The notes under the pieces are model-generated. The model made no database searches. It was not told where the DNA came from and worked only from the letters and a program-made list of their open reading frames with translations. Both the position numbers and the translations under genes were made by a program. A DNA stretch of 64,000 bases from Pedosphaera parvula Ellin514 (GTDB lineage: Bacteria > Verrucomicrobiota > Verrucomicrobiia > Limisphaerales > Pedosphaeraceae), in the NCBI RefSeq assembly GCF_000172555.1, contig NZ_ABOX02000030.1, positions 1 through 64,000 on the forward strand, read 5' to 3'. Positions 2,950-61,809 of this stretch are shown one piece after another (position 1 is the stretch's first letter; each line of letters begins with the position of its first letter).

Positions 2950-3852
2950 TTATTTTATGGTGAAGGGGCAGGGGCCATTGGGGCCGAAGAGGTGGAGGTA
3001 TTCCCATTGGTTGGTGCGGTTGGGGACCTTGATGTAGGTTCGGGATTTCAAGGAGGCATCGCTGCCATCCGTGTAAACGTATCGGACGGTGAGGGCGCTT
3101 CCATTCTGGAGGAATTCGCGAGGGACAGAACCGAGGCAGTCGCCGCGCCCGTTGAAGAAGATTGCGGCTTGTTTTTCCAAGAGTTCGGTACGGGTGGTTC
3201 CGATTGTGGATTCCAGGGATTCATGGGCTTCTTTCCGCAACGGGGCGACTTCGGATTTGAGCGAGGGGATGCGGGCGAAGACATTGCCGGATTGGTCTGT
3301 TTGCGGTGGATCGACGCGTTGGATGTTTGCGGCTTCGAGGTCGCGGACTTTTTGGGTGAGGTTGTCATAGGTTTGTTCGACGGAGCTTTTTTCAGCTTCG
3401 GTGAAGCCGAGGAGTATGGCCATGTGTTCGTTGAGGTGATTGGTTTGGAACAAGCGATTTGAAATTGTGCGGAGGCGAGGCTGTCCGGGTTTGGGGTCTA
3501 TCCGCTCAGAGGTGAGATCACGAATACGAACTGTTTTCAGAAGGTCTTTGTGCAAATAGAAATAGGGTTTGTTCGTGGGCCACCAGCCTTCGGATTGTGG
3601 ATCGGGAAGCGGTGAGGCATCGGCGATGATGGTTGTGTCTGGCGTGCTTGAAATCGGATGAGCGTGGAGTTGGCGGAGGCGTTGCTTGAATTGGACGAGG
3701 CGGGTCTGGTCGCTCTCCAGAGCGGAACGTGTTTCGAGAATCTGGTGGGAGAGTTGGGCAATCTCCTGGTGCAGATTGCTGATGGATTGGCGTTGCCAGG
3801 CGGCGGCGCTGACAAGACCAACAACAGTGAAGAGAAAAAGGAGTGTTTTCAT
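2950..3852 (-). CDS. Membrane-anchored coiled-coil protein coupled to a sigma factor gene
   Basis: About 300 residues. The start at 3852 overlaps the stop of the upstream sigma factor gene as ATGA, which points to translational coupling; an in-frame codon at 3900 would place the start inside the sigma gene. An N-terminal hydrophobic helix (MKTLLFLFTVVGLVSAAAW) is followed by a heptad-rich coiled coil (residues about 20-60), then a soluble domain with 'KPYFYLHKDLL' and 'MAILLGFTEAEKSSVEQ'. The order of these features mimics the part of the upstream sigma factor that follows its own membrane helix ('SADYVRVPKKSL', 'LLKALGLDANGQSRL'). I infer that it is a stand-alone relative of that tail and probably works with it across the membrane. 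No named family is recognised. Confidence 0.7.
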   Translation of the reverse strand: MKTLLFLFTVVGLVSAAAWQRQSISNLHQEIAQLSHQILETRSALESDQTRLVQFKQRLRQLHAHPISSTPDTTIIADASPLPDPQSEGWWPTNKPYFYLHKDLLKTVRIRDLTSERIDPKPGQPRLRTISNRLFQTNHLNEHMAILLGFTEAEKSSVEQTYDNLTQKVRDLEAANIQRVDPPQTDQSGNVFARIPSLKSEVAPLRKEAHESLESTIGTTRTELLEKQAAIFFNGRGDCLGSVPREFLQNGSALTVRYVYTDGSDASLKSRTYIKVPNRTNQWEYLHLFGPNGPCPFTIK

Positions 3853-5564
3853 TTGTTCTTTGTGGGAGCATCCGGGATTTCGGGGTGAGCTTGTTGCCAT
3901 TGGCGGAGGTAATCAACCAGTTGCGGAGGCATGGGCCGATCGATAAAGCCGCGCATGGGATTGAACACGCCCTCAGGAGCGGAGTTGATGACTTCCGAGA
4001 TGCGAAGTTTGTCAATACTTTGCCACTGGGGGTGCTCGCCATTGTCAAATCTTCTGGCGAGGCTGACGCCTCCGGCTGGAAGAGGGGTGAGAACAATCAT
4101 AGGCTGTGTTTTGCCGAAATCCTGAAAGAGGAGGAACAAGCTGCGATCCTGACCCGCCTGGTGAAAAAGTGCCTCCGTCCGTTCTTCGCCGATGAGTTGC
4201 ACAACCCCTTCTACAAACTGATTTTTCAAGTTGGTATCAGCAGATTCGTCGAGCGTAGGGAGCGACCAGACACGGGTATCTGAGTTGGTTTTGACAAACG
4301 ATGGAGTATTGGCGGGGAGAGCCTCAGGACCTTGGATGTGGGCCAGGGAGTCTGCATGCAAGGAGTATTGTTGCACGCCGGCTTGAACATAGGATTGGAG
4401 ACGGGATTGTCCGTTGGCATCGAGTCCGAGGGCTTTCAGGAGAGTGGGGGAGAGATGGCCGTAGCCAGTAATGACCTTCTCTTCATCGCCTGGAATTGAG
4501 CCGAAGTCCCAGGAGGAATTGTGGCCGTCGAATGCGAGCCATGGGAGGCTCTTCTTTGGCACGCGGACGTAATCGGCGGATTCATCCCAGCTGAAGAGTC
4601 GGGGATCGAGATTGTTTGTGGAGATGAGAGCGCTGGGCGAAGTCGGTTGCGAATTGGCGCGGGCTAGGCGATTGGAAGCGGCTTTGAGTTGGCGCAGGAT
4701 TTCAGATTCCGAGGTGGCTGCAAGGTCGCGTGAGGATTGCAGGGAAGCGAGGAGTGTTCGCATGCGTTCCTGTTCCTGATGCAGAGAAAATAATTGTGCG
4801 CCCTGCCAGAGAAGCGGTGTGAGCAACAGGACGGCACCTGCGAGAGCGAGGTGCACGCGATTCATGCCGAGGAGTTTTGCGAGGGCTGCAGTAATAATTG
4901 GAAGAGTGCCTGCTGAAGCCTTGGCGAGGGCGAACTGAGCGGCGGTTGCGGAGAGTCCAGCGGGCGCGGCCTGGGATGCGGCGGTGAGTGAAGCGGCAAA
5001 GGCAGCGGTGGCACCGACCACGAGACCGCGTTTGCGGAGGATGCCGGAGAGTTGGTCGAGGGCCTTGTCGACCCGCTTGCGGGCGGCGTCTTCGCCAATG
5101 CCGAGGGCGAGGCCGACTTCGCGATGATTGCGTCCTTCGAAGAAGCGCAGCAGCAGGGCTTGCCGATCCCTCTCAGGCAATGCGAGAAGGGCTTCGTCGA
5201 GGGCATCGGAAAGTGCGTGCGAATCTGCCGCGGGAGTTTTCATGGTGGTTTCCAGGGCGATGGCGGTTTGTTCGCGGCGTTGACGACGGGATTCGCCGCG
5301 CCACCATTGGCGGGCTTCGAACAAGGTGGTGTGATGCAGCCAGGCGGCGAGAGAGGTGTGGGATTGGAGCCAGATGGCCTTGCGGGCGAGGATCAGGAAA
5401 ACGTTTTGGGTGATTTCCTCGGCAGCAGTGGCGTTGCCGGTACGGCGCAGGGCGGTGCCGAAGACAAGATTCGTATGCTGCTGAACGAGGGCGCGGAAGG
5501 CATCCTCCGAATGCTGATGGAGGTATTCCCTTAGCAGAGCTGAATCATTCATTTGAGTTGCCAT
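3849..5564 (-). CDS. ECF-type RNA polymerase sigma factor with C-terminal membrane/periplasmic tail
   Basis: 571 residues, far longer than the usual ECF factor of 180-200. Region 2 is at residues about 22-85 (LVFGTALRRTGNATAAEEIT, core-binding and -10 recognition) and region 4 at about 122-175 (ALPERDRQALLLRFFEGRNH, helix-turn-helix up to 'ARKRVDKALDQL'). There follow an Ala-rich hydrophobic segment (182-220), a strong membrane helix (about 236-254), a short coiled coil (260-305) and a 260-residue domain expected outside the cytoplasm. The start at 5564 has AGGA about seven bases upstream. Such tailed sigma factors are known from Verrucomicrobia and Planctomycetes; the tail may act as a built-in sensor or anti-sigma module, which is inference. 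The next gene overlaps by four bases. Confidence 0.85.
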   Translation of the reverse strand: MATQMNDSALLREYLHQHSEDAFRALVQQHTNLVFGTALRRTGNATAAEEITQNVFLILARKAIWLQSHTSLAAWLHHTTLFEARQWWRGESRRQRREQTAIALETTMKTPAADSHALSDALDEALLALPERDRQALLLRFFEGRNHREVGLALGIGEDAARKRVDKALDQLSGILRKRGLVVGATAAFAASLTAASQAAPAGLSATAAQFALAKASAGTLPIITAALAKLLGMNRVHLALAGAVLLLTPLLWQGAQLFSLHQEQERMRTLLASLQSSRDLAATSESEILRQLKAASNRLARANSQPTSPSALISTNNLDPRLFSWDESADYVRVPKKSLPWLAFDGHNSSWDFGSIPGDEEKVITGYGHLSPTLLKALGLDANGQSRLQSYVQAGVQQYSLHADSLAHIQGPEALPANTPSFVKTNSDTRVWSLPTLDESADTNLKNQFVEGVVQLIGEERTEALFHQAGQDRSLFLLFQDFGKTQPMIVLTPLPAGGVSLARRFDNGEHPQWQSIDKLRISEVINSAPEGVFNPMRGFIDRPMPPQLVDYLRQWQQAHPEIPDAPTKNK

Positions 5565-31473: not shown

Positions 31474-33099
31474 CTACTGCAACTTTTTAACAACCGTCTG
31501 TAGTCGTGTTCCAGGCGGCATCGGCCACGCTTTATAAATTTCCTGAGGCGTCAATTCTTGGAACTTCGCATTATCCGGCATTCGATCTGGATTGGGCCGC
31601 AACCGCGCATCAAAATCCAAAACACCTGTGACACTGCCGGCCAATACCTGCTGTGTCTCCGGCGGCAGGACATCACTCAACTGCTGCAGTGTTCTCTGAT
31701 CAAGAGCCTTCCACCGCTCGCGAGTTTGCGCCACTTTCTCCGGGTCTGCGGTCTGCGCGGGCTGCGTGTCTCCCATCAACCCGTCATCGTACGCTCTTAT
31801 CCAACTCAGCCCTTTGAAACGTTCTTCATCCCGCGCCTGCTCCAAAATTTGACGCATCCGCCAAATGGTATCCTTGTCCTTGATATCCAGCAGTGATGCG
31901 AGATAACTCGACTGGAAATGCGCGAACTGATCCGGCTCTGCAACGCTTTTGCCCAGGTAAGGCCATGCTTTCGCGAGATGATATTCCTCTGCAGGACTGA
32001 TTTTTCCCGAAACAAGTTTCTTGACGAGTTGGCTATAAGCCCAGGCATCTGGTGCCGGGTTCGGACTTCGGATCGGCGGCATTTGATCAGGCAACAAACC
32101 ATAAGTGTTCTTCGTATTGGCAACCCGGTTCGACAACGAACCGACACTCGCCTGCAACCGCGTCACTTCTCCCCTTAACCTCAACAACTCACGATGCTCC
32201 CCCCGCAGCCGCTCCAGCTCGGCCATGTCTGGACTCACATTCGTGGACACCTTCAGCTTTTGCTCCGCCAGACTTGCCAGCTTTCGATTCTCCTGTTGCA
32301 TGGCGGCATTTTCCGTCGACAAACGCGCCAACGACCGCTGTTGCCCCACGAAACCGGCAACCAACCCCACCCCCACCAAGGCGCTCACGCCAAGTTTAAC
32401 TTTGCTCACGCTCATAATTTTAGAAATGATTGTTCCCATCCCCGTTTGATTCGCCATAAGGGCAGACGACGACTCAATAACCGCCTTCGCCAACCCAGCC
32501 GGCACCGCACTCGTGCTTTGACTGGCCAATCCCGCTGCCAGAGCCGTGCCGGTGAGGACAATTCCCCGGCCGGTCAGCAGATTCCTCAATTTCTCCAGCG
32601 CACGTTCCACCCGCATCCGCGCTGCGTTCTCACTGACTCCAAGACTGGTTCCCACCTCGGCAAAAGGTCTGTCTTCGAAATAGCGTAACAATATGGCTTC
32701 GCGATCTCCCTCTTTGAGTTGGTGCATCAGTTCATCCAACACCCGGCTCGTCGCCGACCAATCCACCTCCGACTCGGATTTTGATAACTCTTGCATCCTA
32801 TGGGCCTCCTGTTCGCGTTCCCGCCTTCGTGATTCGCCCCGCACTGCTTTTGCCGCCGCATAATGCGTGCTCGTATAAAGCCAGCCTGTGATGGAAACCC
32901 GATTCTTCAGCCCCGAAGCCTTGCGTGCCAGGTCAATAAACACCGATTGCGTAACATCCTGGGCCAGGCCGGAATCCCCATTAAGCTGTCTCAACGCAGT
33001 CGAATAAACCAACGGGATATGCCGCCGCACCAGCTCGGCAAACGCCTCACTGGAATTTTCATCGGCAAACCGCCGCAACATTTCACAATCGGATGTCAT
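31474..33099 (-). CDS. Second ECF-type sigma factor with membrane/coiled-coil tail
   Basis: 541 residues with the same plan as the protein at 3849: region 2 (about 20-85, 'YSTALRQLNGDSGLAQDVTQ'), region 4 (about 120-172, 'KEGDREAILLRYFEDRPFAE', 'SENAARMRVERALEKL'), an Ala-rich segment, a membrane helix (about 234-252, 'LGVSALVGVGLVAGFVGQQ'), then a long coiled coil (255-328) and a 210-residue outer domain with no similarity I can see to the tail of the first factor. Tail diversity on a conserved sigma core suggests that each responds to its own signal. The secreted propeller gene downstream is a possible target. Confidence 0.82.
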   Translation of the reverse strand: MTSDCEMLRRFADENSSEAFAELVRRHIPLVYSTALRQLNGDSGLAQDVTQSVFIDLARKASGLKNRVSITGWLYTSTHYAAAKAVRGESRRREREQEAHRMQELSKSESEVDWSATSRVLDELMHQLKEGDREAILLRYFEDRPFAEVGTSLGVSENAARMRVERALEKLRNLLTGRGIVLTGTALAAGLASQSTSAVPAGLAKAVIESSSALMANQTGMGTIISKIMSVSKVKLGVSALVGVGLVAGFVGQQRSLARLSTENAAMQQENRKLASLAEQKLKVSTNVSPDMAELERLRGEHRELLRLRGEVTRLQASVGSLSNRVANTKNTYGLLPDQMPPIRSPNPAPDAWAYSQLVKKLVSGKISPAEEYHLAKAWPYLGKSVAEPDQFAHFQSSYLASLLDIKDKDTIWRMRQILEQARDEERFKGLSWIRAYDDGLMGDTQPAQTADPEKVAQTRERWKALDQRTLQQLSDVLPPETQQVLAGSVTGVLDFDARLRPNPDRMPDNAKFQELTPQEIYKAWPMPPGTRLQTVVKKLQ

Positions 33100-37785: not shown

Positions 37786-38622
37786 ATGAGGCGCCGGACC
37801 ATCATCATTCCTCTGTTGCTCATTTTCGCAACGGCGATTGGTTTGTCCCTGCGCAACTATCACCCCGAACCGGAATATCAAAACCATCCGCTGAGTTATT
37901 GGCTGGACTACAATCCACGCGAAGAAAACCATATCGCTGCTGAATTGCGTTACAAGGCGATCCAAACCATCGGCACGAATGCGTTGCCGGTGTATATCTC
38001 TTGGTTGCGTTCCAAAGACTCATATCCAAAGCAATTGATAATGAAATTGCTGGCTCTAATACACATTCATGTTCGCTCTGCGGTAGAACGTCGAGACCTG
38101 GCCATGCTTGGATGGCAAGTCGCACAGTTATCACATGAGGTGATCAATCCAAATGTTTGGGAGGAACTCTCCTGGCTCGAAATCGGCGGCTGTGGGCTCG
38201 AGTCTGAAGGACAGGAACAGCGTACGATTAACTCCTTGCTGCATGGAACTCCGGAACAAAGAGAGAGCGCAGCCCGCGTAATGCACAGATATTTCTACTC
38301 ACCTGAATCCATCGACGCCCTCACCTCAGCTCTCAAAGACCCGTCCTCGAGAGTCCGCTATTTCGCTGCACGCTCTCTTGCTTTATCCAGCGAAAACTCC
38401 AAACCCGCCATTCCCGCCCTCATTCAATCCCTTCAGGACAAAAATGAATTCGTCCGCATGACCGCCGCCTTCGCCTTGGGCAAATTCGGTCGAGGCGCAA
38501 CCAGCGCCAGAACCTCCCTCCAGCCATTGTTAAAAGACCCCAACATCGATGTCCGCGCCTGTGCAAAACTCGCGCTCCAACAAATCGACGCGAAGGAAAT
38601 TGTCATACAGGCGAAAAAATGA
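37786..38622 (+). CDS. HEAT-repeat protein, tandem paralogue 1
   Basis: 278 residues. An N-terminal hydrophobic anchor ('TIIIPLLLIFATAIGLSL') precedes 'NYHPEPEYQNHPLSYWLDYN'. HEAT-like helices occupy the C-terminal half: 'PSSRVRYFAARSLALSSENS', 'KPAIPALIQSLQDKNEFVRM', 'TAAFALGKFGRGATSARTSL', 'DVRACAKLALQQID'. Compared with the next gene (38813), residues 1-70 and the last 90 are almost the same while the middle differs a lot, which points to duplication followed by divergence or gene conversion. The 40 bases before the start are also shared. Function unknown; probably a scaffold on the outer face of the inner membrane. Confidence 0.75.
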   Translation: MRRRTIIIPLLLIFATAIGLSLRNYHPEPEYQNHPLSYWLDYNPREENHIAAELRYKAIQTIGTNALPVYISWLRSKDSYPKQLIMKLLALIHIHVRSAVERRDLAMLGWQVAQLSHEVINPNVWEELSWLEIGGCGLESEGQEQRTINSLLHGTPEQRESAARVMHRYFYSPESIDALTSALKDPSSRVRYFAARSLALSSENSKPAIPALIQSLQDKNEFVRMTAAFALGKFGRGATSARTSLQPLLKDPNIDVRACAKLALQQIDAKEIVIQAKK

Positions 38623-38812: not shown

Positions 38813-39658
38813 ATGAGGCGCCGGACCGTCATCATTCCTCTGTTGCTCATTTTCGCAACAGCGATTGGTTTGTCCCTGCGCAACTACCACCCCGAACCGG
38901 AATATCAAAACCATCCGCTGAGTTATTGGTTGGACTACAATCCTCGGGAAGAAGACCACATCGCTGATGAATTGCGTTACAAAGCGATCCAAACCATCGG
39001 CACGAATGCCCTTCCATTTTATACCGCTTGGGCAAGTGCCAAAGACTCTGCTCCGAAGAAAGAGTTGATCAGATTGTTGGCCTTATTCAACATCCACCTC
39101 CGCTCGGCTGAGGGTTATCAGGAAATGGCCGAAACTGGATGGCACACCGCAAATCTGTCACGCGAGATGTTAAGTCCAATCGTTTGGGAAACACTCTCCC
39201 GTTTCGATGTCGGCGTATGCGGTCTTATCACCAAGGAGGACGAACAAGACTGCTGTCGTCGCTTGCTAAACGGAGCTCCCGAAGTAAGAGAGGGCGCGGC
39301 ACGTGAGATGCCAGAATATTTTTTCAATGCACCCGATTCGATCAATACTCTCACTCTGGCCCTCAAGGATGGTTCACCCCGAGTGCGCTATTTCGCCGCT
39401 CGCTCGCTGGTGCTCGCAAAAAATTATACAAACTCCCAACCTGCCATTCCCGCCCTCATCCAATCGCTTCAGGACACAAACGAATTCGTCCGCATGACCG
39501 CCGCCTTTGCCTTGGGCAAATTCGGCAAAGCCGCAGCCAGCGCCAAAACCGCCCTCCTGCCATTGTTGAAAGACTCCAACACCGACGTCCGTGCCTGCGC
39601 CAAGCTCGCTCTCCAGCAAATCGACTCGGACAAGATTGTCATACAGGCAAAAAAGTGA
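38813..39658 (+). CDS. HEAT-repeat protein, tandem paralogue 2
   Basis: 281 residues, same plan as the gene at 37786: anchor, 'NYHPEPEYQNHPLSYWLDYN', variable middle, and four HEAT-like helical pairs at the end ('GSPRVRYFAARSLVLAKNYT', 'QPAIPALIQSLQDTNEFVRM', 'TAAFALGKFGKAAASAKTAL'). It is followed by a second copy of the DUF481-like relic, so the duplicated unit included both the gene and the broken 3' end. Confidence 0.75.
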   Translation: MRRRTVIIPLLLIFATAIGLSLRNYHPEPEYQNHPLSYWLDYNPREEDHIADELRYKAIQTIGTNALPFYTAWASAKDSAPKKELIRLLALFNIHLRSAEGYQEMAETGWHTANLSREMLSPIVWETLSRFDVGVCGLITKEDEQDCCRRLLNGAPEVREGAAREMPEYFFNAPDSINTLTLALKDGSPRVRYFAARSLVLAKNYTNSQPAIPALIQSLQDTNEFVRMTAAFALGKFGKAAASAKTALLPLLKDSNTDVRACAKLALQQIDSDKIVIQAKK

Positions 39659-51894: not shown

Positions 51895-52857
51895 ATGCGA
51901 ATGCAAATTAGTATTGAACTTAAGGAGCAAGTCCGCACTGTCTGGCTGGCCATTCGTTTTCTCATCTTCGGCCTACTCGGATTTTGGTTTGCCACCGCAT
52001 GCAGTTCGGCGTTTCTCAGCACTGTTTATGATTCCCCAGTTTCCGAGTCGGGCGCCTTGATTTTCATGCCGATCTTCATCTGCCTCGGTGCGCTCATGAT
52101 GCTGTTTGGTTTTAATGCCTGGCGACGCTGGGATTGCTTTTGGGTTTTTCTCAGTCTCCACGTTTCTTTTTTATATGCCATATGGGCTTATGAGAGGACG
52201 GAATCTGATAAAGCAAAGATGCTCGGCTCAATGCTCATCGTGGCTGCTGGTGTCCTGCTTGCCTGGATTAAATCTCGAAGCCACCACCAACAACAGGCCA
52301 GTCAGCAGCCACCAGACAAAAACGAAGTTTTGCGGCGACGCATTCGGCTCGGAGTTTCAGTGGCGCTGGCCGGAATTATCTTTTTCCTGGCCCTTCCTCA
52401 TCGACCGGACATTTCCGGCATAAAGGTTGTTGGCTCTCTATCGCCCGCTGCCGTCCGGGAGATCATGGGCAATTATGAAATAAGTCAAAACTTTCAGATG
52501 CGTCGCAAAATATTGGCTGATCTTCATCAGCGGGAGATTAAGAAAGCCTTCTCCGATTGGCGCAAGGTCAGATATACAAGGGTGGACCGGATCATTGACA
52601 ATCCTGACGGCACCGTCACGCTCATGTCTGCCATCTCCATACCCGGTGAACCTCTCGTCTTTCTGCCTCCCACTTTAATGAGCGGATGGACTTGCCCATT
52701 GGTCCAGCACCCGGAAAAATACCAATTCAACAGCCAAATAAAGTTCCTGCGCCCTGAACCGCCTCTCACGTCTGCTCCAGATCAATCCATTTATCCAAAT
52801 CAGGCAGTCTTGCCTCGGTCAATAAATCCAACAACTTCTCCGGATCTTTTTCCGTGA
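51895..52857 (+). CDS. Membrane protein of unknown function
   Basis: About 320 residues. Four or five hydrophobic helices: 'FLIFGLLGFWFATACSSAFL', 'LIFMPIFICLGALMMLFGF', 'CFWVFLSLHVSFLYAIWAY', 'MLGSMLIVAAGVLLAWI', and 'LGVSVALAGIIFFLALP'. A hydrophilic C-terminal domain follows (about 190-320, 'YTRVDRIIDNPDGTVTLMSA'). Starts at 51877 (TTG), 51895 and 51901 are all possible. The 3' end overlaps the converging LOG-type gene by 92 bases, which is unusual; the true end or the LOG end may differ. I do not recognise the family. Confidence 0.6.
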   Translation: MRMQISIELKEQVRTVWLAIRFLIFGLLGFWFATACSSAFLSTVYDSPVSESGALIFMPIFICLGALMMLFGFNAWRRWDCFWVFLSLHVSFLYAIWAYERTESDKAKMLGSMLIVAAGVLLAWIKSRSHHQQQASQQPPDKNEVLRRRIRLGVSVALAGIIFFLALPHRPDISGIKVVGSLSPAAVREIMGNYEISQNFQMRRKILADLHQREIKKAFSDWRKVRYTRVDRIIDNPDGTVTLMSAISIPGEPLVFLPPTLMSGWTCPLVQHPEKYQFNSQIKFLRPEPPLTSAPDQSIYPNQAVLPRSINPTTSPDLFP

Positions 52858-53353
52858 TCACCAGCTCCCGATGCACGGAGCGGATAAACTTCTCCGTCAC
52901 CGCATGATCCAGGAATTTAAGAAAGCCATCATAAAATCCATCCACATTTAATAATCCATGCGGGTTGCGATGCTCTCCAAGTTGCGCCCAGGTCAGCACT
53001 TCGCAAAATTCCTCCAATGTTCCAAACCCTCCCGGCAACGCGATGAAGGCATCGGATAGGTTTACCATCACCGCCTTTCGTTCGTGCATCGATTGCACCA
53101 CGCGCAAGTCCTTTAGCCCAAGGTGCGCCACTTCTTTGGCTACGAGCGCCTCCGGGATGACACCAATAACATTTCCGCCCGCTTCCAAAACCGCATTGGC
53201 AATCGTTCCCATCAGGCCAACCCTTCCGCCGCCGTAAACCAGTTCTATTCCCCGTCCCGCCAGTGCTTTACCCATCGCCTCGGCGGCATGCTCGTAGGAT
53301 TGCCGTGCCCCGCTGCTCGACCCGCAATAGACGCAAACCCGTTTGAAGTCCAT
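52766..53353 (-). CDS. LOG-family (TIGR00730) nucleotide phosphoribohydrolase
   Basis: 195 residues. The Rossmann-like fold opens 'VCVYCGSSSGARQSYEHAAE', with 'LVYGGGRVGLMGTIANAVLE', the catalytic R-x-x-M in 'SMHERKAVMVNLSDAFIALP' and the family signature 'PGGFGTLEEFCEVLTWAQLG'. The enzymes release the base from cytokinin or AMP-type 5'-monophosphates; the bacterial physiological role is usually unclear. It follows the CBM9-like gene on the minus strand. Confidence 0.9.
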   Translation of the reverse strand: MDFKRVCVYCGSSSGARQSYEHAAEAMGKALAGRGIELVYGGGRVGLMGTIANAVLEAGGNVIGVIPEALVAKEVAHLGLKDLRVVQSMHERKAVMVNLSDAFIALPGGFGTLEEFCEVLTWAQLGEHRNPHGLLNVDGFYDGFLKFLDHAVTEKFIRSVHRELVITEKDPEKLLDLLTEARLPDLDKWIDLEQT

Positions 53354-53420: not shown

Positions 53421-54515
53421 TTAATAACCTGTCGTCATGTTCACGCTCATCATGCGTGGCGCGACGCGGCCCAGCTCCTTGCCCGATTTGTCATAAACCA
53501 TTCCAAGAAGTTGATACGCTCCGGGCGCTGCAAGGTCATACGACCATTCTGCCCTGGCCCGTTGGAAATTTCCTATTCTCTCAATGGTTTCCACCGTGCC
53601 AGGAAACTCGCCTAATTTCCTGCCGTCCAAACCCATGACGCGAAACATTACCTTGCCGATTTCTTCACAATTCGGCGGCAAAGCCATGTAACCGGTCACC
53701 ATGGGACGCGCAGGCTGGCCCCACGCCACGTCGCAACGGATGGGCATCTGAACCGCAGCGCATTGTTTCCAATACTGCGGCTCCATTTTCTCAACGAACT
53801 GAATTTTGCCCAGGCTCGCCGGTTGTTGCACCGAAAGCGGGCTGCCATAAGCAAAGGCGCGATACAACCGCTTCCCGCCATCGCTATAACAAGCTTCCGC
53901 GTCCAATGCGATTACCGTGCCTATCTTTGGTTTGAATCCCGGAAAATTCGTCCACGGCAGCTTGAATTCCACATCCATCCCCACACTGGTACGTTTCGCG
54001 GCGACTTCCACGCCGATCTTTTTGATCGCATCCAAATAGCCGGGGCGCAGGCAGAAGCGACCCTGCACATTCGTTCCCTTCAATCCGGTCCAATAGCAAT
54101 GCACCGCACCTTGTTCCCACTTCGTGCTGCGAGCGTTCTCGTCCTGGCGAGGGTCGAAATACCATTCCACCGCATCGCCTTCCCACAAATGGGCGTCATC
54201 GGCAATGTTGGCCGGATGCTCATCCAAGGTTCTCAGCGCGGCATAAAAAGCCTCGTCATCCCACATGTAAAAGAACTGCGCGGGTCGATTCTTCTGGTCG
54301 GCATTGAAATATTCCACCGGCGTGCAGAAGGCATCCTTGAACTCCGAAAGATCGCCATCAATTTTCATCTCCTTCGGCGCGCGCGTCGCCAGGCCGCGCA
54401 CGCCCTCAGCTAGTTTGATGGGCGAGTCAGCAGCGTGGGTTAAGGTTGAGCCGAGGGCAAATCCGGCGATGAGAAGTGAATACACAACGCCCCTATAAAA
54501 GAGATTCGTGTTCAT
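53421..54515 (-). CDS. Secreted protein with CBM9/DOMON-like sugar-binding domain
   Basis: 364 residues with a signal peptide ('VVYSLLIAGFALGSTLTHAA'). Residues about 40-215 resemble the family 9 carbohydrate-binding fold: 'PKEMKIDGDLSEFKDAFCTP', 'FFYMWDDEAFYAALRTLDEH', 'LWEGDAVEWYFDPRQDENA', 'GMDVEFKLPWTNFPGFKPKI'. The C-terminal 120 residues form another beta domain. No catalytic motif is seen. It probably binds a glycan outside the cell. Confidence 0.72.
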   Translation of the reverse strand: MNTNLFYRGVVYSLLIAGFALGSTLTHAADSPIKLAEGVRGLATRAPKEMKIDGDLSEFKDAFCTPVEYFNADQKNRPAQFFYMWDDEAFYAALRTLDEHPANIADDAHLWEGDAVEWYFDPRQDENARSTKWEQGAVHCYWTGLKGTNVQGRFCLRPGYLDAIKKIGVEVAAKRTSVGMDVEFKLPWTNFPGFKPKIGTVIALDAEACYSDGGKRLYRAFAYGSPLSVQQPASLGKIQFVEKMEPQYWKQCAAVQMPIRCDVAWGQPARPMVTGYMALPPNCEEIGKVMFRVMGLDGRKLGEFPGTVETIERIGNFQRARAEWSYDLAAPGAYQLLGMVYDKSGKELGRVAPRMMSVNMTTGY

Positions 54516-54813: not shown

Positions 54814-54851
54814 AAACTACCCGCATTGAAAACGGGCAATGCGGGTAGTTT
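54814..54851. terminator. Terminator downstream of the serpin cluster
   Basis: Perfect 15-base stem AAACTACCCGCATTG / CAATGCGGGTAGTTT with an eight-base loop. On the minus strand it is followed by TTTTAG, so it would stop transcripts from the serpin genes. Confidence 0.85.
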
Positions 54852-54970: not shown

Positions 54971-56179
54971 CTATTTCATTGGGTCCATCACCCGACCCAT
55001 GAACAGAATGCTGCCTGTTCCGTTATCGCGAATCACAAACAAGAAGGGGTGATCGGCAAAGAATCCCTTGGGCCCTGGCTTTCCAGTATTGCCAAATGCA
55101 ACACCGGCCATCGTAACCGCTGCCGCTTCGGTCTCTGTCTCGTTCACCTCCACGAATGATTTGTGCAGCACCTTCGAAAGGTGAAGTTCGCCAGAACTCA
55201 TCATTCCCCTAAAGTCCGCCTTGGAACAAAAGGCATCGTGCAACCCCATCTCTCCCAGCGTGCTGTTTAGATCAAACTCTTCATCCATTTTGAATTTTGG
55301 TAGTTGAATGGCTACCTCTTGATCGTGCATCTGGCTTATCCAAGAGGAAAGACTTTGCGTTGTGATGAAGGATTCAAGGTCCGGAAGCCCATCTCTGGCG
55401 CTAGGAAGCAGAATTACCATGGACAGCTTGCGACCGGCATACGGCAGCTTAAGGGCTTTTAGCTTTGGATTTTCATAATAGTCGAAGTGTTCCTGCTGAT
55501 ACATCATTTGTGCGGTTACGGAGCCTTTCTTTCCAAAATAGAATGGATTTGGCATGGTCACTTCCTTAGAGAAAGGAGTTGCCCATGCTCCTTTAAAGTA
55601 AACCGCGTTGACCAGTACTAATGCCACTGCCCGGTCGAGTGCTTCCGGTTGCAAAATTGTCTGAATTCTGCCCTCGGTCTTTTTGGCCACCCAACCGTTT
55701 AGCTCATCACTGGCGAGCTGTGCTTGCGTGCCGAAATCAAACCGCATTGCGTCCGCTTGATATGTTTTATTGAGGCAATCCAGGAATTCCTTGCTAAAAG
55801 GCATTCCTTTTTGGGCGAGCAGGGCATTGGCAACCTTTAGGGTAACGCCCGGTTTTTTGTTCAACTCCTTTTGCAATTCACCAAAGCCTGTATGCAACGC
55901 GGCTTGATTCGTGCTGAAATGCAGGGTCTTTGCCATTTGCTTCTCGGTCTCACCGCGCGCACCGGCATAGGCCATTCCTAAACAGGTCGATACGCTGTAG
56001 GGGGAAAAGAAGAGATTGCCTTCCTTCGATTTGAGTTTGCCATAAAGCTCCAGGGCAAACGCATTATTCTCCTGAACTAATTCCGGAATGGCATTGGTGG
56101 TTTCTGATTTTACCGGGACGCTGGCGAACATTACACCAGTCAAAATCCCTAGCAGGGTTAGGTTCTTATACATTGACAT
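54971..56179 (-). CDS. Secreted serpin 1
   Basis: 402 residues, serpin family (suicide inhibitors of serine or cysteine proteases). A signal peptide ('LTLLGILTGVMFASVPVKS') precedes the fold: 'GNLFFSPYSVSTCLGMAYAG', 'LVLVNAVYFKGAWATPFSKE' and the C-terminal 'HPFLFVIRDNGTGSILFMGR'. The hinge reads 'VNETETEAAAVTMAG', which keeps the small residues at P12-P10 needed for loop insertion, so it is probably inhibitory. Counting 13 residues on from the hinge Thr puts P1-P1' near G-N in 'AGVAFGNTGK'. It is last in the operon, 12 bases after serpin 2. Confidence 0.93.
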   Translation of the reverse strand: MSMYKNLTLLGILTGVMFASVPVKSETTNAIPELVQENNAFALELYGKLKSKEGNLFFSPYSVSTCLGMAYAGARGETEKQMAKTLHFSTNQAALHTGFGELQKELNKKPGVTLKVANALLAQKGMPFSKEFLDCLNKTYQADAMRFDFGTQAQLASDELNGWVAKKTEGRIQTILQPEALDRAVALVLVNAVYFKGAWATPFSKEVTMPNPFYFGKKGSVTAQMMYQQEHFDYYENPKLKALKLPYAGRKLSMVILLPSARDGLPDLESFITTQSLSSWISQMHDQEVAIQLPKFKMDEEFDLNSTLGEMGLHDAFCSKADFRGMMSSGELHLSKVLHKSFVEVNETETEAAAVTMAGVAFGNTGKPGPKGFFADHPFLFVIRDNGTGSILFMGRVMDPMK

Positions 56180-56191
56180 TGTTTTCGTGGT

Positions 56192-57421
56192 TTACTTCGT
56201 AGGATCAATGACCCGGCCCATGAACAAAATGCTGCCGGATTTCCTCTCACGGATCAGGAATATAAAGGGATGATCGGCTCGAAAAGTCGGCGGAGGATCT
56301 AAATCCATTCCGTTTGACATCATATGAACAGACGAAGCGGCGGCTTCGGTTCCGTCTTCGTTTACATCGGCGACCGCCTTGTGAAATACAGCGGAAATAT
56401 GAAGATCTCTGGCTCCATCCATGCCTGAGAAATCGGCATCATGTGCGCTAAAGGCCTTTTGCATGCCCATGGTTTTTAAGCATTCAGAAAGTTCTGCCCC
56501 AAAACTCAGTTTGAATTTAGGAATGAATACATCCACATGTCGCCCTCGCATGCCGGAGGTGAGATGCATCAACGTTTCGGCGCTCAGCTTTGCTTCCAAT
56601 GCCTTGAGACCATCTTGCTTCCGGGGCAGTAAGATGAGCATCGAGAACTGTCCTTCCGTATAAAACAGTTCCGTTGCCTGAAGGTCTTCGTCCTGGTAGT
56701 AGGGAAAGCCCTCATTTTTATGCATCATTCTCACGTCCTTGCTTTCGCCTTGAGCAATGGTGAAGGGCTGTTGAGTGGTTGAGGCTGGATAGAACCGAAA
56801 CATCCACCCACCTTTGAAGTGAACGGTGTTAACGAGGGCGATTTGCGTCAAATCGTCCAAGTCTCGGGGTTGTACTATTTCTCTAATTTTGCCCGAGGTT
56901 TTGTCCGAAACCCATTCGTTGATTTCCTTGCAGGCAGAGACCTTTTCGGTGCGGAAATCTACCTGTTTGACGAAGGCATGGTATGATTGGGTAACGATAT
57001 TCTGAAATCCTTGGGAAAGTGGCTGGCCCTTTTGGACATAAATCGCGTTGGCAATCTGTGCATCCTCTGGTGTTGAGTTTCTCAGCAGCTTTTCCAAACC
57101 CTTTTCGTCAAAGTCACTCAGCAGTTGGCTGAACTGTGCATGAAGCTGGTTCTGATTTGTACCAAAGTGCAACGTCTGTGCCATTTGCTTTTCGGTTTCG
57201 CCACGAGCGCCGGCATAGGCCATTCCCAAAGATGTTGAAATGCTGAGGGGCGAGAAGAAGAGATTGCCATCGCGGGACTTTAGTTTCCCATACAGATCGA
57301 AGGCAAAGGCGTTGTTTCCTCGCACGAGGTCCGGAACAGCATTCGTGGGTTCAGATTTGATCGGCAAACTGGCGAACATCAAACCAGTCAAAATCCCTAG
57401 CAGGGTTAGGTTCTTATACAT
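56192..57421 (-). CDS. Secreted serpin 2
   Basis: 409 residues. The signal peptide ('NLTLLGILTGLMFASLPIKS') is nearly the same as in serpin 1, so these two are recent duplicates at the 5' end. Fold motifs: 'GNLFFSPLSISTSLGMAYAG', 'IALVNTVHFKGGWMFRFYPA', 'HPFIFLIRERKSGSILFMGR'. The hinge is 'VNEDGTEAAASSVHMM', and P1-P1' falls near G-M in 'MMSNGMDLDPPP'. Small residues at P12-P9 suggest it can inhibit. The spacing to its neighbours is 12 bases on both sides, which argues for one transcript. Confidence 0.93.
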   Translation of the reverse strand: MYKNLTLLGILTGLMFASLPIKSEPTNAVPDLVRGNNAFAFDLYGKLKSRDGNLFFSPLSISTSLGMAYAGARGETEKQMAQTLHFGTNQNQLHAQFSQLLSDFDEKGLEKLLRNSTPEDAQIANAIYVQKGQPLSQGFQNIVTQSYHAFVKQVDFRTEKVSACKEINEWVSDKTSGKIREIVQPRDLDDLTQIALVNTVHFKGGWMFRFYPASTTQQPFTIAQGESKDVRMMHKNEGFPYYQDEDLQATELFYTEGQFSMLILLPRKQDGLKALEAKLSAETLMHLTSGMRGRHVDVFIPKFKLSFGAELSECLKTMGMQKAFSAHDADFSGMDGARDLHISAVFHKAVADVNEDGTEAAASSVHMMSNGMDLDPPPTFRADHPFIFLIRERKSGSILFMGRVIDPTK

Positions 57422-57433
57422 CTTTTTCGTGGT

Positions 57434-58657
57434 TTACTTCGTGGGATCAGTGACCCGGCCCATGAACAAAATGCTGCCGGATTTCATGTCACGAATGAGA
57501 AAAAGAAACGGATGATCGGCGCGGAAGGTGGGTGGCGCGTGCACTGCTGCGGTTCTCGACATCGTGATGCCAGTTGCTGCCGCGGCTTCGGTTCCCTCTT
57601 CATTGACCTCCACAAAGGCTTTATGAATCACCGAGGAAATAAAAAGATCGCGGGTGCCATCCATGCCCGAGAAATCGGCTTTGGCGGTAAAAGCATCGGT
57701 CATGCCCATGGCCGCAAGCGGTTGACCAAGCTCGAATCCTGCGTTGATTTTGAATTTGGGCAGGAACACATTGACCTCCGGGCTTGCGGCTTGAGACAGC
57801 CAATCGCTCAGCTCCTTCGGATGCAGCATGGATTCCAACTTCTGAGTCCCTTCGACCTCCTTGGGCAATAAAACCACCATCGAAAGTTCATTTCCTTTGT
57901 AAGGCATTTCCAAAAGCTGGAAGTTGCCGCGGTCAGCGAATTTGAACCGGGATTTCAGGTTCATCAGCTGTGCCTGAACTTTTTGGCTGGATGAAATCGA
58001 AAAATCAGCCGGGGCCGTCCTGCTCTTGTTAAACTGCGTTGCCCATTGACCTTTGAAGTAAATGGCGTTTACAAGGACCAGCTTCGTCATTGCGTCCAGC
58101 GCACCGGAGGGGATGATCTCCTCAATCTTGCCGTTGGTTTTTTTGGAGACCCAATCGTTGATTTCCTTGCGGGCGGATTCACTTTGGGTGCGAAAATCAA
58201 CTTGGTTCACCCGTGCATCATAGTTTTGCTGCGCGATTTGGAGAAAAGCCGGAAGGAAAGGATGCCCCTGTTGCGCCCACAAGGCATTGGCCACATTCAA
58301 TTTGATGCCTTGCTGCTTCTCCGCTTCGTTCAATTGCTTCTGAAGAGTCGCAAATCCAGCGTGGAGTTGAGCCTGATTGGTGGTGAAATGAAGGGCTTTG
58401 GCCATCTGTAGTTCCGTTTCCCCACGCGCTCCCGCGTAAGTCATGGCCAGGCAGGTGGAAATGCTATACGGAGAGAAGCAGAGATTTTCATTTTCCTTGC
58501 CGGCATTGACGCGGGAGTAAAGGTCAAAGGCAAAAGTGTTGTTTCCTTGGACGAGCTTCGGAACGTTGTTTGTGGATTCTGCTTTGATTGGTAAAGCCAT
58601 GATGAGCGCTCCTGTGGTTACCAAGACATTGAATAGGCTTTTAAAAGCATTCTTCAT
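57434..58657 (-). CDS. Secreted serpin 3
   Basis: 407 residues from the ATG at 58657; an in-frame codon at 58750 lies in the relic of another serpin and is not used. Signal peptide 'LFNVLVTTGALIMALPIKA'. Fold motifs 'NLCFSPYSISTCLAMTYAGA', 'LVLVNAIYFKGQWATQFNKS', 'HPFLFLIRDMKSGSILFMGR'. The hinge 'VNEEGTEAAAATGITM' is the textbook inhibitory form (E-E-G-T-E-A-A-A-A-T). P1 is the T or R of 'TMSRTAAVHAPP'; an Arg there would suit a trypsin-like target. Confidence 0.93.
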   Translation of the reverse strand: MKNAFKSLFNVLVTTGALIMALPIKAESTNNVPKLVQGNNTFAFDLYSRVNAGKENENLCFSPYSISTCLAMTYAGARGETELQMAKALHFTTNQAQLHAGFATLQKQLNEAEKQQGIKLNVANALWAQQGHPFLPAFLQIAQQNYDARVNQVDFRTQSESARKEINDWVSKKTNGKIEEIIPSGALDAMTKLVLVNAIYFKGQWATQFNKSRTAPADFSISSSQKVQAQLMNLKSRFKFADRGNFQLLEMPYKGNELSMVVLLPKEVEGTQKLESMLHPKELSDWLSQAASPEVNVFLPKFKINAGFELGQPLAAMGMTDAFTAKADFSGMDGTRDLFISSVIHKAFVEVNEEGTEAAAATGITMSRTAAVHAPPTFRADHPFLFLIRDMKSGSILFMGRVTDPTK

Positions 58658-58673
58658 ATTTGTTGTTAAGTTT

Positions 58674-58722
58674 ATTGGATCCATCACCGGCCTATAAGCA
58701 AAATGCTCCTCCTCGCCAGGCA
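58674..58722 (-). pseudogene. 3' relic of a fifth serpin gene
   Basis: On the minus strand the end of a serpin is readable: 'RSILLIGR', then after a one-base deletion 'VMDPIN'. It matches 'GSILFMGRVMDP' of the intact genes, and the DNA GGATCCATCACC is identical to that of serpin 4. The rest of the gene is gone and the small ORF at 58747 takes its place. Confidence 0.75.
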
Positions 58723-58746
58723 TCCCTTCCAGCAAACCATAAAAGC

Positions 58747-58896
58747 TCAAGCTCCCTCGCCAAAATCGACTTCATAATCGGTTAGACGAAAAGCGTGCTC
58801 CAATACTCCCGATTTTTCAGTCTTAGGACGGATCGACACAATTTCAGCACCCTTTTCCTGGTGGCTGTCAGGAACTGCATCAGCGAAAGTAGACAT
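58747..58896 (-). CDS. Putative 49-residue protein between serpins 3 and 4
   Basis: An ATG at 58896 is preceded by AAGGA nine bases upstream and lies 13 bases after the stop of serpin 4. The product is 49 residues, acidic ('MSTFADAVPDSHQEKGAEIV', 'LEHAFRLTDYEVDFGEGA'), with no signal peptide or membrane segment. I do not recognise it. The good ribosome site and operon position support translation, but its size and the relic beside it leave room for chance. Confidence 0.45.
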   Translation of the reverse strand: MSTFADAVPDSHQEKGAEIVSIRPKTEKSGVLEHAFRLTDYEVDFGEGA

Positions 58897-58909
58897 TCTT
58901 ATCCTTGGA

Positions 58910-60007
58910 CTAGTTGCCTGGATCCATCACTCTGCCCATGAACAAAATGCTTCCCGTTCCACAATCACGCACAAGGAAAATGAAAGGATGGTCGGCTCGG
59001 AGTATGGCTGGGCCAACATGTTCAACCATCGACTGCGCGGTATAGGCGAGGCGTGTGATAAAGGATGCCTCAGTCCCTTGTTCGTCAACCTTCACAAAAG
59101 ACTTATGGAGAGCTGTGGATATCCGTAGCATTTTTGTTCCGTCAATCCCTGAAAAGTTGGCCACCCCAGTAAAAGCGTCCATTATCCCTAGCTTTTTGAG
59201 CTCTGGAGCCAGTTCAAGGCCGGATTCGAATTTAAAACGGGGCAAAAACAGTTCCACCTCAAGATATTCAGCATCGTGTTCCCATTTCGAAAGACTCTTT
59301 GTGTTCACCGCCGCTTCCAATTTGGCCAATCCATTAACATCTTTAGGTAATAGGATGAGCATGGATAATTTGTAATTCGTGTACGACAGCTCAACGAGTT
59401 GCACCGTGTCATCCTCAAAGAAGTGGTAGCGATGTTTATTCTTCTGATGCATCATCTGAACATCTTTTGTCCTTCCGTCAGCCAGGTGAAAAGCAGCGGT
59501 TTTGGTTTCCTTGGCATCAAATGGGACCTCCCAATGGCTGTTTAGATAGAGGACATTCACCAGCACTAGTGATGTTAATGAATCTAGTTCTCCTTCGGCC
59601 AAAATGTTGGTGATCGTGCCTCTCGTTTGTTGGCCAGCCCAGCCGTTGATTTGTTGGCGTGCAGCTTCTGACTGAGTAGCAAAATCAACCTGTTTTATGC
59701 TGGTCTCGTAATTCGTCGCGTGTTCAAGGAACGATGGAAGAAATGGGTGCCCTTTCTGAGTCCAGAGAATATTGGCCATGTGTAGATCGATGCCCTTCTG
59801 TTGCTCTGCGGAGGTTAATTTTTTTTGTAATTCACCAAACAAGGAGTGCAGCTTGCTTTGGTCGGAGTTGAAATGAAGCACTTGGGCTATCTGTCGTTCC
59901 GTTTCCCCATGTGCACCGGCATAGGCCATGGCGAAGGCGGTAGAGATGCTGTAAGGAGAGAAACAAATATTACCATCCCTGGATTTCAGTTTGCCATAGA
60001 GCTCCAA
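58910..60007 (-). CDS. Serpin 4, lacking signal peptide (5'-truncated)
   Basis: 365 residues from a TTG at 60007. Serpin similarity continues upstream in frame ('EQVNGNNTFALELYGKLKS') to about 60028, where it meets the stop of the di-haem gene, and no ATG or signal peptide is available. The fold is otherwise complete: 'NICFSPYSISTAFAMAYAGA', 'LVLVNVLYLNSHWEVPFDAK', 'HPFIFLVRDCGTGSILFMGR'. The hinge 'VDEQGTEASFITRLAY' has a Phe at P10 and Ile at P9, poor for insertion, so it may be non-inhibitory. It may be read by coupling with the upstream gene, or be dying. Confidence 0.75.
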   Translation of the reverse strand: MELYGKLKSRDGNICFSPYSISTAFAMAYAGAHGETERQIAQVLHFNSDQSKLHSLFGELQKKLTSAEQQKGIDLHMANILWTQKGHPFLPSFLEHATNYETSIKQVDFATQSEAARQQINGWAGQQTRGTITNILAEGELDSLTSLVLVNVLYLNSHWEVPFDAKETKTAAFHLADGRTKDVQMMHQKNKHRYHFFEDDTVQLVELSYTNYKLSMLILLPKDVNGLAKLEAAVNTKSLSKWEHDAEYLEVELFLPRFKFESGLELAPELKKLGIMDAFTGVANFSGIDGTKMLRISTALHKSFVKVDEQGTEASFITRLAYTAQSMVEHVGPAILRADHPFIFLVRDCGTGSILFMGRVMDPGN

Positions 60008-60027
60008 TGCAAACGTGTTGTTCCCGT

Positions 60028-61809
60028 TTACTTGTTCGGAAAGGAAATGACAAGAGCTTTTTTGTCGGCTGGACTTAAAGGAACGCCGCCATCGGGATGC
60101 TTCGCGAGATTGGGGTCCAAGGTGACGCTCCGTTGCATTCCCGTGCTGTAGTGTTCGATCACTTCTTCCAGAGTTTTGAAGCGACCGTCGTGCATGTATG
60201 GCCCGGTGAGTTCGACGTTGCGGAGAGAGGGAACAGCGAACCTGGCTTTATCGGCTTCATTATGAGTCACTTCGTAACGGCCAAGGTCCTGGAAGGTTGA
60301 ATCCAGGCCATTGTTGGCAAAGCCGTGCGTGGAAAAGAACGGGCCGCTGTGGCAATGGAAACAATCGGCTCCGAACTGGCCCCGCCGCGGATCGTATTCC
60401 GTCATGAACAATTCGAAGCCTCGTTTCTCTTCGTCAGTAAAAGTTTCCTTTCCTTCCAAGGCCCGATCAAACCGGGAGTTGAATGAAACCTGGGAAAGGA
60501 GAAATTGCTCGAAGGCGCGTGCCAGGCGGTCACTGGTGATTTCAGGAGTACCGAATGCGCGCTCGAAGAGCAGCGGATAGAGCCTGGTGCTGGCGAGTTT
60601 TTTAACAGCGTTGGCTGCAGATTCGTGCATTTCGATTGGATTCTCAATCGGCTTGAGGGCCTGCTCACGGAGCGAAGCGGCGCGGCCATCCCAAAAAAAA
60701 GATTTTTTCCAGGCAAGATTGAAAATGGGCATGGCGTTGCGAGTTCCCATTTTGCCCTCGGCACCGGCGCTGGCGCGCTGGCCGCGATCGGCAAAGGCAG
60801 CTTCCGCCCGATGACACGAGGCACAGGATTGCGAGTTGTTGATGGAGAGCAGTTTCTCGTTGAACAGTTGATGGCCGAGTTCAACGCCTTCTTCCGTAAG
60901 TGGATTATCATGCGGAAGATCTGGAATGGGAAATTGGGAAGAGATCGTGAAACGATAGGGAGTGGCTTTCGAGGCAGTTTGGCCATCGGGAGCAGGGTTG
61001 ACGGCAGCAACGGGTGCGGGAGCAGGGTTGTGAGCCGGGCCTTTCGTAATCGATGCGGTGAAGGCACCTTCCATTTTTTGCTTCAACCGGGCTGCCAATT
61101 CGTCTCCAGCGCGCGAATGTGTGGTGGAGGTGTCTTCCGACATTTTGAAGTTCAGCAGGTCATTTAAATTAAAGGCAAGGGTCAGATTTTGATCCTGCTC
61201 TAAACTTAGATTTACGGGGACCTCGGCCGTCATCAGCATGGGATCATTGCCGAGGTGAAACGAATAACCGCTGAGTTTGCCATCAGAGGTTTGCCAAGCA
61301 CCTTCCCAGGCAAAGAAGACATAACCGCCGGTCCAGCCCCAATGCATTCCATTTAGGTTGGGATTGAGGGGATGATGGGGAGCATACTGGGCCGGGTTGG
61401 AATGATTGATCGCCGGGTGGAGGCCGATGTGAAAGCGGATGCGGTCGTAAGTGCCGGTCGGAAGATTTTTGAGTTCAAAGTCCGAAAGATTCTCGTGAAG
61501 ACTGATGAAGGCTTGGGAATTGGTTGGTTGAACCCAGGTTCCATCGACGCCACGGAAAGCAAAATCTGAGAGCAGCAAATCCAGTCGCGTTACTGACAGC
61601 GTTTGGCCGCTGGCATTGGTCAGGGAGAAGGAGTCGAAAGAGAGTGGCAGTGAGTTGTAGCTGGGGCTGATTTGGATGTGCAAATTGCGGGTGGGATTTG
61701 GAGCCGAGGCGACGTAGCCAAGGCTCCAGATGAACAGGAGGCATCCGGAAAGGAAGGTGGCAAAACTTCTTACTGCGTTACTTATTTGAGATGACGGCGG
61801 TTTTTTCAT
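60028..61809 (-). CDS. Fused MbnP-like and di-haem MbnH/cytochrome c peroxidase-like protein
   Basis: 593 residues. A signal or anchor (residues 15-35) is followed by an MbnP-like domain (about 40-235: 'LHIQISPSYNSLPLSFDSFS', 'DLLLSDFAFRG', 'YDRIRFHIGLHPAINHSNPA', 'MHWGWTGGYVFFAWEGAW') and, after an Ala/Pro linker, a di-haem peroxidase-like domain (about 290-590) with CxxCH in 'NNSQSCASCHRAEAAF' and 'GADCFHCHSGPFFSTHGF'. In methanotrophs MbnH and MbnP are separate, adjacent genes, and MbnH oxidises a Trp of MbnP for copper binding. The Trp-rich loop here could be the target. The C terminus ('SPADKKALVISFPNK') ends where related proteins carry several more residues. Confidence 0.82.
   Translation of the reverse strand: MKKPPSSQISNAVRSFATFLSGCLLFIWSLGYVASAPNPTRNLHIQISPSYNSLPLSFDSFSLTNASGQTLSVTRLDLLLSDFAFRGVDGTWVQPTNSQAFISLHENLSDFELKNLPTGTYDRIRFHIGLHPAINHSNPAQYAPHHPLNPNLNGMHWGWTGGYVFFAWEGAWQTSDGKLSGYSFHLGNDPMLMTAEVPVNLSLEQDQNLTLAFNLNDLLNFKMSEDTSTTHSRAGDELAARLKQKMEGAFTASITKGPAHNPAPAPVAAVNPAPDGQTASKATPYRFTISSQFPIPDLPHDNPLTEEGVELGHQLFNEKLLSINNSQSCASCHRAEAAFADRGQRASAGAEGKMGTRNAMPIFNLAWKKSFFWDGRAASLREQALKPIENPIEMHESAANAVKKLASTRLYPLLFERAFGTPEITSDRLARAFEQFLLSQVSFNSRFDRALEGKETFTDEEKRGFELFMTEYDPRRGQFGADCFHCHSGPFFSTHGFANNGLDSTFQDLGRYEVTHNEADKARFAVPSLRNVELTGPYMHDGRFKTLEEVIEHYSTGMQRSVTLDPNLAKHPDGGVPLSPADKKALVISFPNK

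Follow-up and report, generated by a model that had tools for sequence, protein, structure and literature searches.

Why would a bacterium keep four serpin genes side by side, and could they form a working set of protease inhibitors? The question is raised by the first 64,000 nucleotides (nt) of contig NZ_ABOX02000030.1 of Pedosphaera parvula Ellin514 (Verrucomicrobiota, Limisphaerales, Pedosphaeraceae), a stretch referred to below as the window (positions 1-64000 of contig C30, in a genome of 7.41 Mb and 102 contigs), where four such genes, here named S1 to S4, follow one another on the minus strand. Serpins act by a suicide mechanism: once a protease has cleaved the bait loop, the inhibitor inserts its hinge into sheet A and keeps that enzyme covalently bound. 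The role of these proteins in bacteria has been called enigmatic (Spence et al., 2021, PMC8233489, section 12). With a probability of about 0.62, we read the four genes as exported paralogs born from tandem duplication, among which S3 and S2 would be protease traps, S1 perhaps a weaker one and S4 probably a copy losing inhibition or without it, the copies offering differing baits. The array itself is real, of an ordinary kind and with an unusual number of copies.

All four frames are members of the serpin superfamily, with near full-length matches to the Pfam family PF00079 that lie far above its cut-off of 27 bits, and they occupy one strand between 54971 and 60037, as a preliminary description of this DNA had it. 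S1 (54971-56179, 402 residues, starting at ATG 56179 or 56173) matches with an expectation value (E) of 1.8e-123, S2 (56192-57421, 409 residues, with a start nearly identical to that of S1) with 2.1e-120, S3 (57434-58657, 407 residues from ATG 58657, a likelier start than TTG 58750) with 4.8e-132, a value obtained for the longer frame from TTG, and S4 (58910-60037), which has neither a native start nor a signal peptide, with 1.8e-110. The profile is covered from 2 to 370 in S1, S2 and S3, and in S4 from 9 to 370 when read from TTG or from 2 to 370 in the open frame. A view of S4 as a plain pseudogene and nothing else was not adopted, its frame having zero stops in 375 codons. The 12-base gaps noticed earlier among the first three genes were found at 57422-57433 (S3/S2) and 56180-56191 (S2/S1), and S4 lies 252 bases from the ATG of S3. 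The three signal peptides of the preliminary description correspond, as judged by eye from the sequence, to signal-peptide-like N-termini: S1, S2 and S3 open with a basic start, a hydrophobic stretch and an xKS or xKA cleavage-like site (MYKNLTLLGILTGVMFASVPVKS in S1), and S4 has no such N-terminus. A terminator-like stem-loop (54814-54851, minus strand; 15 base pairs, 7 being GC, followed by a T-rich tail) stands 120 nt after S1 and has the longest stem among the 10 such sites found, compared with 7.8 expected from shuffles; S3, S2 and S1 probably form one transcription unit ending at this strong terminator. Co-transcription is what we infer here, because the promoter scan did no better than shuffles (5 sites versus 5.5), with no minus-strand promoter-like site listed between the serpin genes.

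Position and ancestry support a small, probably exported family that would have been duplicated locally. The next gene downstream of S1 encodes a CBM9-like protein (53421-54515, minus strand) and the second a LOG-type protein (Lysine_decarbox in Pfam; 52766-53353, minus strand). In the congeneric genome G001, an S4-type serpin is followed by the same CBM9-like neighbour and then by LOG, with none of S1-S3 between; this serpin is broken by a frame change (near 219-230 of locus L041, where an assembly error is possible) and by the start of its contig. Two other genomes of the same family, G002 and G007, present one serpin with a LOG-type gene directly after it. Given this serpin-LOG order in relatives, the array sits at an old serpin place. 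A tree was built from 63 rows, selected among 127 serpins that had been collected and the G001 fragment, whose row is 44% filled. S1 and S2 are sisters (support 99/84), S4 joins the G001 fragment (100/99; 89 of 154 core residues and 7 of 20 loop residues identical), and the array group is nested in a 15-row verrucomicrobial set (89/89), the loci that group with S1-S4 coming from Limisphaerales and other Verrucomicrobiota bins. Among the four, S3 sits on the shortest end branch and is nearest to serpins of other genera; the branches of S1, S2 and S4 are longer. The same genome also encodes, on contig C18, a fifth complete serpin that is likely a lipoprotein (LCGC box, by eye), and two serpins are placed under Pedosphaera parvula in a published tree (available text of PMC6050375). 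A serpin relic is likewise visible at C18:43989-44138 (minus strand, around 1460-1680 of locus L006), where the hinge NERGTEAAAA is soon followed by a stop; it lies 1.6 kb from the lipoprotein-like serpin, and the two are perhaps a second, decayed pair.

Traces of how copies arise are seen where the genes meet. About 120 nt are near-identical at the S3/S2 junction (57369-57484, minus strand) and at the S2/S1 junction (56121-56242, minus strand), each running from the last part of one gene across the gap into the signal peptide of the next. Aligned over 572 nt, the two are 76% identical overall and far more so in the junction part, compared with 56-58% for the gene cores. Similarly, the first 20 codons of S1 and S2 have an identity of 0.96 versus 0.56 in the core, and the longest shared exact blocks reach 39 nt (start of S1 and S2) and 35 nt (end of S2 and S3). 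Such junctions would fit recent gene conversion or unequal crossing-over. Just upstream of S3, a possible serpin 3'-end relic (58659-58707, minus strand) resembles the S2 end plus gap (74% over 50 nt, E 0.001) and the S3 end (72%, E 0.017), so that the fifth relic described earlier comes down, at best, to a weak likeness of about 50 nt.

The ability to inhibit was judged from the hinge and from conserved residues. The ExGTEAAAA hinge is a mark of inhibitory prokaryotic serpins in the available text of Spence et al. (2021, PMC8233489), and a P17-P9 segment of this kind was required, with Gly at P15 and small residues at P12-P9. S2 (EDGTEAAAS) and S3 (EEGTEAAAA) fit this pattern, as do 115 of the 123 other serpins aligned with S1-S4, which suggests that both hinges are able to insert. 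Across 97 columns kept in at least 85% of these 123 serpins, S3 shows 4 breaches, S1 12, S2 13 and S4 18, the median of the others being 3, and 60, 15, 12 and 7 of the others, respectively, are breached as often or more. Since some other serpins are equally breached, erosion alone is no proof of lost inhibition. The well-kept fold of the preliminary description, judged on sequence, holds for S3, the most conserved copy (loop TGITMSRTAAVHA), less so for S1 and S2 and least for S4. In S3, a count from P15 would make Thr the P1 residue and Arg the P2 residue, a loose placement as loop lengths vary.

The loops were also compared with the rest of the protein. Over the whole family they are only somewhat more variable than the core, a comparison proposed from the start (2.18 versus 1.85 bits); the median variability of the loop is reached by 152 of 354 core columns, and the hinge is very constant (0.29 bits). 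The four strings quoted earlier, AGVAFGNTGK, MMSNGMDLDP, TMSRTAAVHA and LAYTAQSMVE, are all present in the four proteins and are distinct, but to say that the loops differ completely slightly overstates the case, as 7 of 17 loop residues are common to S2 and S3, among them the five of the distal PPTFR. Mean identity among S1-S4 is 0.48 in the core and 0.10 in the loop (13 residues from P8), compared with a loop identity of 0.31 (standard deviation 0.07) in random quartets of other serpins with like core identity. Only 20 of 20000 quartets have loops as low as S1-S4, or 9 of 10000 in a rerun, and two other loop measures give 0 and 1 of 10000, figures that are not strict probabilities because the same sequences and lineages recur among quartets. 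For single pairs, between 2% and 24% of the background shows loops as low. Loop divergence is thus above background, partly due to S4. Third codon positions among the four genes are saturated (identity 0.31-0.41), so that the ratio of nonsynonymous (dN) to synonymous (dS) rates among them was not used as a test. Second positions are far more alike (0.70-0.76), a sign of long-lasting constraint on the protein in all four copies.

These observations can be assembled into a scenario in which tandem duplication, in the lineage of the genus to which the window belongs, multiplied one ancestral secreted serpin near the LOG gene. S1-S3 would be exported through their signal-peptide-like N-termini, and S3 and S2 would then most likely work as suicide-substrate traps by the established serpin mechanism. 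S1 perhaps still traps proteases, less efficiently, and S4 is probably losing inhibition or has lost it. Loop changes would provide different baits, through which S1-S3 may meet different proteases, and selection may have driven part of these changes. The array would accordingly hold two good inhibitor candidates (S2 and S3), one doubtful (S1) and one decaying or cut (S4). The small exported inhibitor repertoire proposed earlier is retained as far as the locally duplicated family and the fitting hinges of S2 and S3 are concerned, and is toned down for S1 and S4.

Several results weigh against this scenario. When S4 is left out, the excess of loop divergence in S1-S3 becomes modest, with 208, 83 and 85 of 10000 as low by the same three measures. 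The hinge pattern fails in S1 (ETETEAAAV, with Glu at P15 and Val at P9) and in S4 (EQGTEASFI, with Phe at P10 and Ile at P9), and inhibition by these two is doubtful. In S4, moreover, the conserved NAIYFKG motif has become NVLYLNS, and both SFI at P11-P9 and the changed FKG residues speak against inhibition, the hinge of its G001 orthologue being partly alike (EASGI). Structure models of S3 and S4, from six- and eight-row alignments, are too poor to use (mean predicted local distance difference test, pLDDT, of 40 and 47). The grouping of S1-S4 with the G001 fragment is weakly supported (60/87, bootstrap not settled), no LOG gene was found within about 1.5 kb on each side of the family loci L009, L011, L021 and L022 (including those of G004 and G005), and the family genomes G003 and G006 have no serpin match.

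It is possible, though rather unlikely, that the array records birth and death of genes with no adaptive diversification, unequal crossing-over at the near-identical junctions being followed by drift of most copies under relaxed constraint. S3 alone would then keep the ancestral job, and the loops would differ because S1, S2 and S4 are no longer needed as inhibitors. The 12, 13 and 18 breaches in S1, S2 and S4, compared with a median of 3, go in this direction together with end branches longer than that of S3, the missing start of S4, the frame break of the G001 orthologue (if not an assembly error) and the relic near the lipoprotein-like serpin on C18. However, none of the four frames has a stop in its 365 to 409 codons, the S2 hinge is still good, and the loops exceed the core-matched background, which relaxation of the whole protein alone would not give. 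Since conserved residues were lost in S4, S1 and S2, relaxed constraint does explain some of the loop change. Diversified baits on duplicated, exported serpins remain our preferred reading, in which adaptive loop diversification is plausible and decay explains part of the change. Of the diversifying selection claimed in the preliminary description, the divergence beyond core-matched expectation stands for S1-S4 and, more weakly, for S1-S3; selection itself is not demonstrated, third positions being saturated.

The front of S4 has its own difficulty. Its serpin homology starts no more than a few codons from 60037, TTG 60007 is the first start listed in frame, and going upstream the open frame enters the 3' end of a differently framed gene, which encodes an MbnP and di-haem peroxidase protein (CCP_MauG in Pfam; 60028-61809, minus strand) and is cut at a joint at 60048/60049. 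Contigs C30 and C48 of the same genome share 275 bases (60049-60324 of the window, minus strand, and C48:1-275, the C48 copy being one base shorter), the lower edge of which is the suspect joint; beyond it, C30 runs into the serpin and C48 into an intact peroxidase end. The C-terminus on C48 (within C48:1-344) is complete and like that of G001, and in six relatives the best matches of the window's peroxidase stop at residue 588 of 593, so that the window's peroxidase is cut at the joint. Neither a serpin nor MarC, the neighbour on C48, was found beside the peroxidase in the six relatives whose peroxidase surroundings were compared (G001, G002, G003, G005, G006 and G007). The joint is probably a false one made in assembly, which we favour over a real rearrangement or duplication, and the absence of a signal peptide in S4 is therefore unsafe. 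That the whole cluster, beyond this joint, is an assembly artefact is very improbable. The bases of 60049-60324 do recur on C48, where they continue into an intact peroxidase, and the peroxidase has no serpin neighbour in six relatives, but this conflict touches the S4/peroxidase joint only, and an S4-type serpin does adjoin CBM9 and LOG in G001. Furthermore, S1-S4 differ at 42-46% of core nucleotides and are therefore not false repeats of one gene.

MbnP and di-haem peroxidases are usually separate partner proteins. In the product of 60028-61809, an MbnP domain and a MauG-like di-haem cytochrome c peroxidase domain are fused in one protein, and this fusion has near-full-length matches in G001, G003, G005, G006 and G007. 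Elsewhere in the window, two long proteins (3849-5564 and 31474-33099, minus strand) begin with sigma-70 regions 2 and 4, followed by several hundred residues that have no Pfam match, and two neighbouring HEAT-repeat proteins of similar size (37786-38622 and 38813-39658, plus strand) are perhaps a tandem pair.

Serpins had been called rare in bacteria and usually single. Among 387 genomes of the phylum, with at most four candidates scored per genome, 109 have a serpin match, and more than one match is present in 27 of these 109 rows, some being pieces of one gene. Adjacent pairs occur in at least three phylum genomes besides the window's (G107, G174 and G288). A second serpin was found in 5 of 80 named loci, many of them cut by contig ends: L053, L067, L085 (partial), L115 and L120 (three copies). 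Tandem serpins were found in a Methanogenium bin (3), a Bacillota bin (2) and Zixibacteria DG_27 (2), and the idea of a cluster unique in bacteria was rejected, tandem serpins being present in other bins. In the planctomycete bin B1Sed10_114 (G446, from which L067 comes), six matches are spread over three contigs, two of these matches being partial and cut by contig ends. On its contigs C224, C161 and C282 (L183, L184 and L178), a serpin lies each time at or near a contig end, perhaps as pieces of one longer array split by assembly.

Six tandem pairs from four arrays have core identities of 0.68-0.84 and loop identities of 0.15-0.31, compared with a mean loop identity of 0.59 in 77 non-tandem pairs (core at least 0.66), 5 of which do not exceed the highest tandem value. 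This contrast, like the signal-peptide-like starts of S1-S3, speaks for an arms race in which predator or host proteases positively select the loops, as does a loop dN exceeding core dS in L120ab, L115, L067 and 9 of 10 G446 comparisons with loop (adjacency is shown for only some G446 pairs, the L067 pair being one of them). However, the opposite is seen in L053, L120ac, L120bc, the G107 pair (saturated) and the closest pair of G446, which keeps 15 of 18 loop residues. The contrast also shrinks to 0.47 versus 0.64 with whole aligned loops, 29 of 77 non-tandem pairs then not exceeding the highest tandem value, and adaptation to the cell's own proteases would look identical; an arms race is in our view unlikely. 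As loops hold only about 34-40 nonsynonymous sites, they do not allow a formal selection test on single pairs, and the adjacent G174 and G288 pairs gave no result in the codon test, the hinge pattern being unmatched.

Differing baits on exported duplicates thus remain a reasonable idea, which gains some support from the other arrays. More tentatively, at less than even odds, recurrent tandem duplication of secreted serpins in prokaryotes may build bait repertoires in which the loop outpaces the body several-fold in its evolution, and the window would hold an old, partly decayed example whose near-identical junctions act as recombination sites for new copies; the comparison of tandem and non-tandem pairs suggests a prokaryotic pattern worth a proper survey. 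Where one cell has tandem paralogs that bear different baits, the function of bacterial serpins becomes testable, and the proteases trapped by each copy would tell guarding against outside proteases from tuning of the cell's own.

The nearest counterparts are the serpins of G002 (C19) and G007 (C549, a contig of only 3.5 kb), which resemble S3 by 56-59% identity, a LOG neighbour, a signal-peptide-like start (by eye) and a canonical hinge; they differ from the window by a single copy at that place, with no CBM9 gene between, and each genome has a second serpin elsewhere. By sequence, the best solved chain for S3 is 8gxv, "Proteinase inhibitor I4 serpin" (E 2e-92), which we take to be chloropin. 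Miropin, siropins, the Bifidobacterium serpin, tengpin, thermopin and chloropin belong to the same family, whose inhibitory hinge is shared by S2 and S3 (available text of PMC8233489 and PMC10090351). Unlike the window, these characterised serpins are not described there as tandem, the word occurring 0 times in the available text of PMC8233489, and none of the titles and abstracts listed from open-licence papers dealt with bacterial or archaeal serpins in tandem whose loops diversify (the available text of PMC5127057, PMC9296628 and PMC6718151 was also consulted). The other prokaryotic arrays reported above are like the window in their head-to-tail copies with unlike loops. They differ in cores that are 0.67-0.91 identical, and are therefore younger, and in hinges that, where seen, are canonical or close to it. 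Animal serpin clusters are also tandem and include members without an inhibitory hinge, as in Drosophila, where 17 of 29 serpin genes lie in 6 clusters (available text of PMC2770083), and they differ from the window in being eukaryotic and at an unrelated place.

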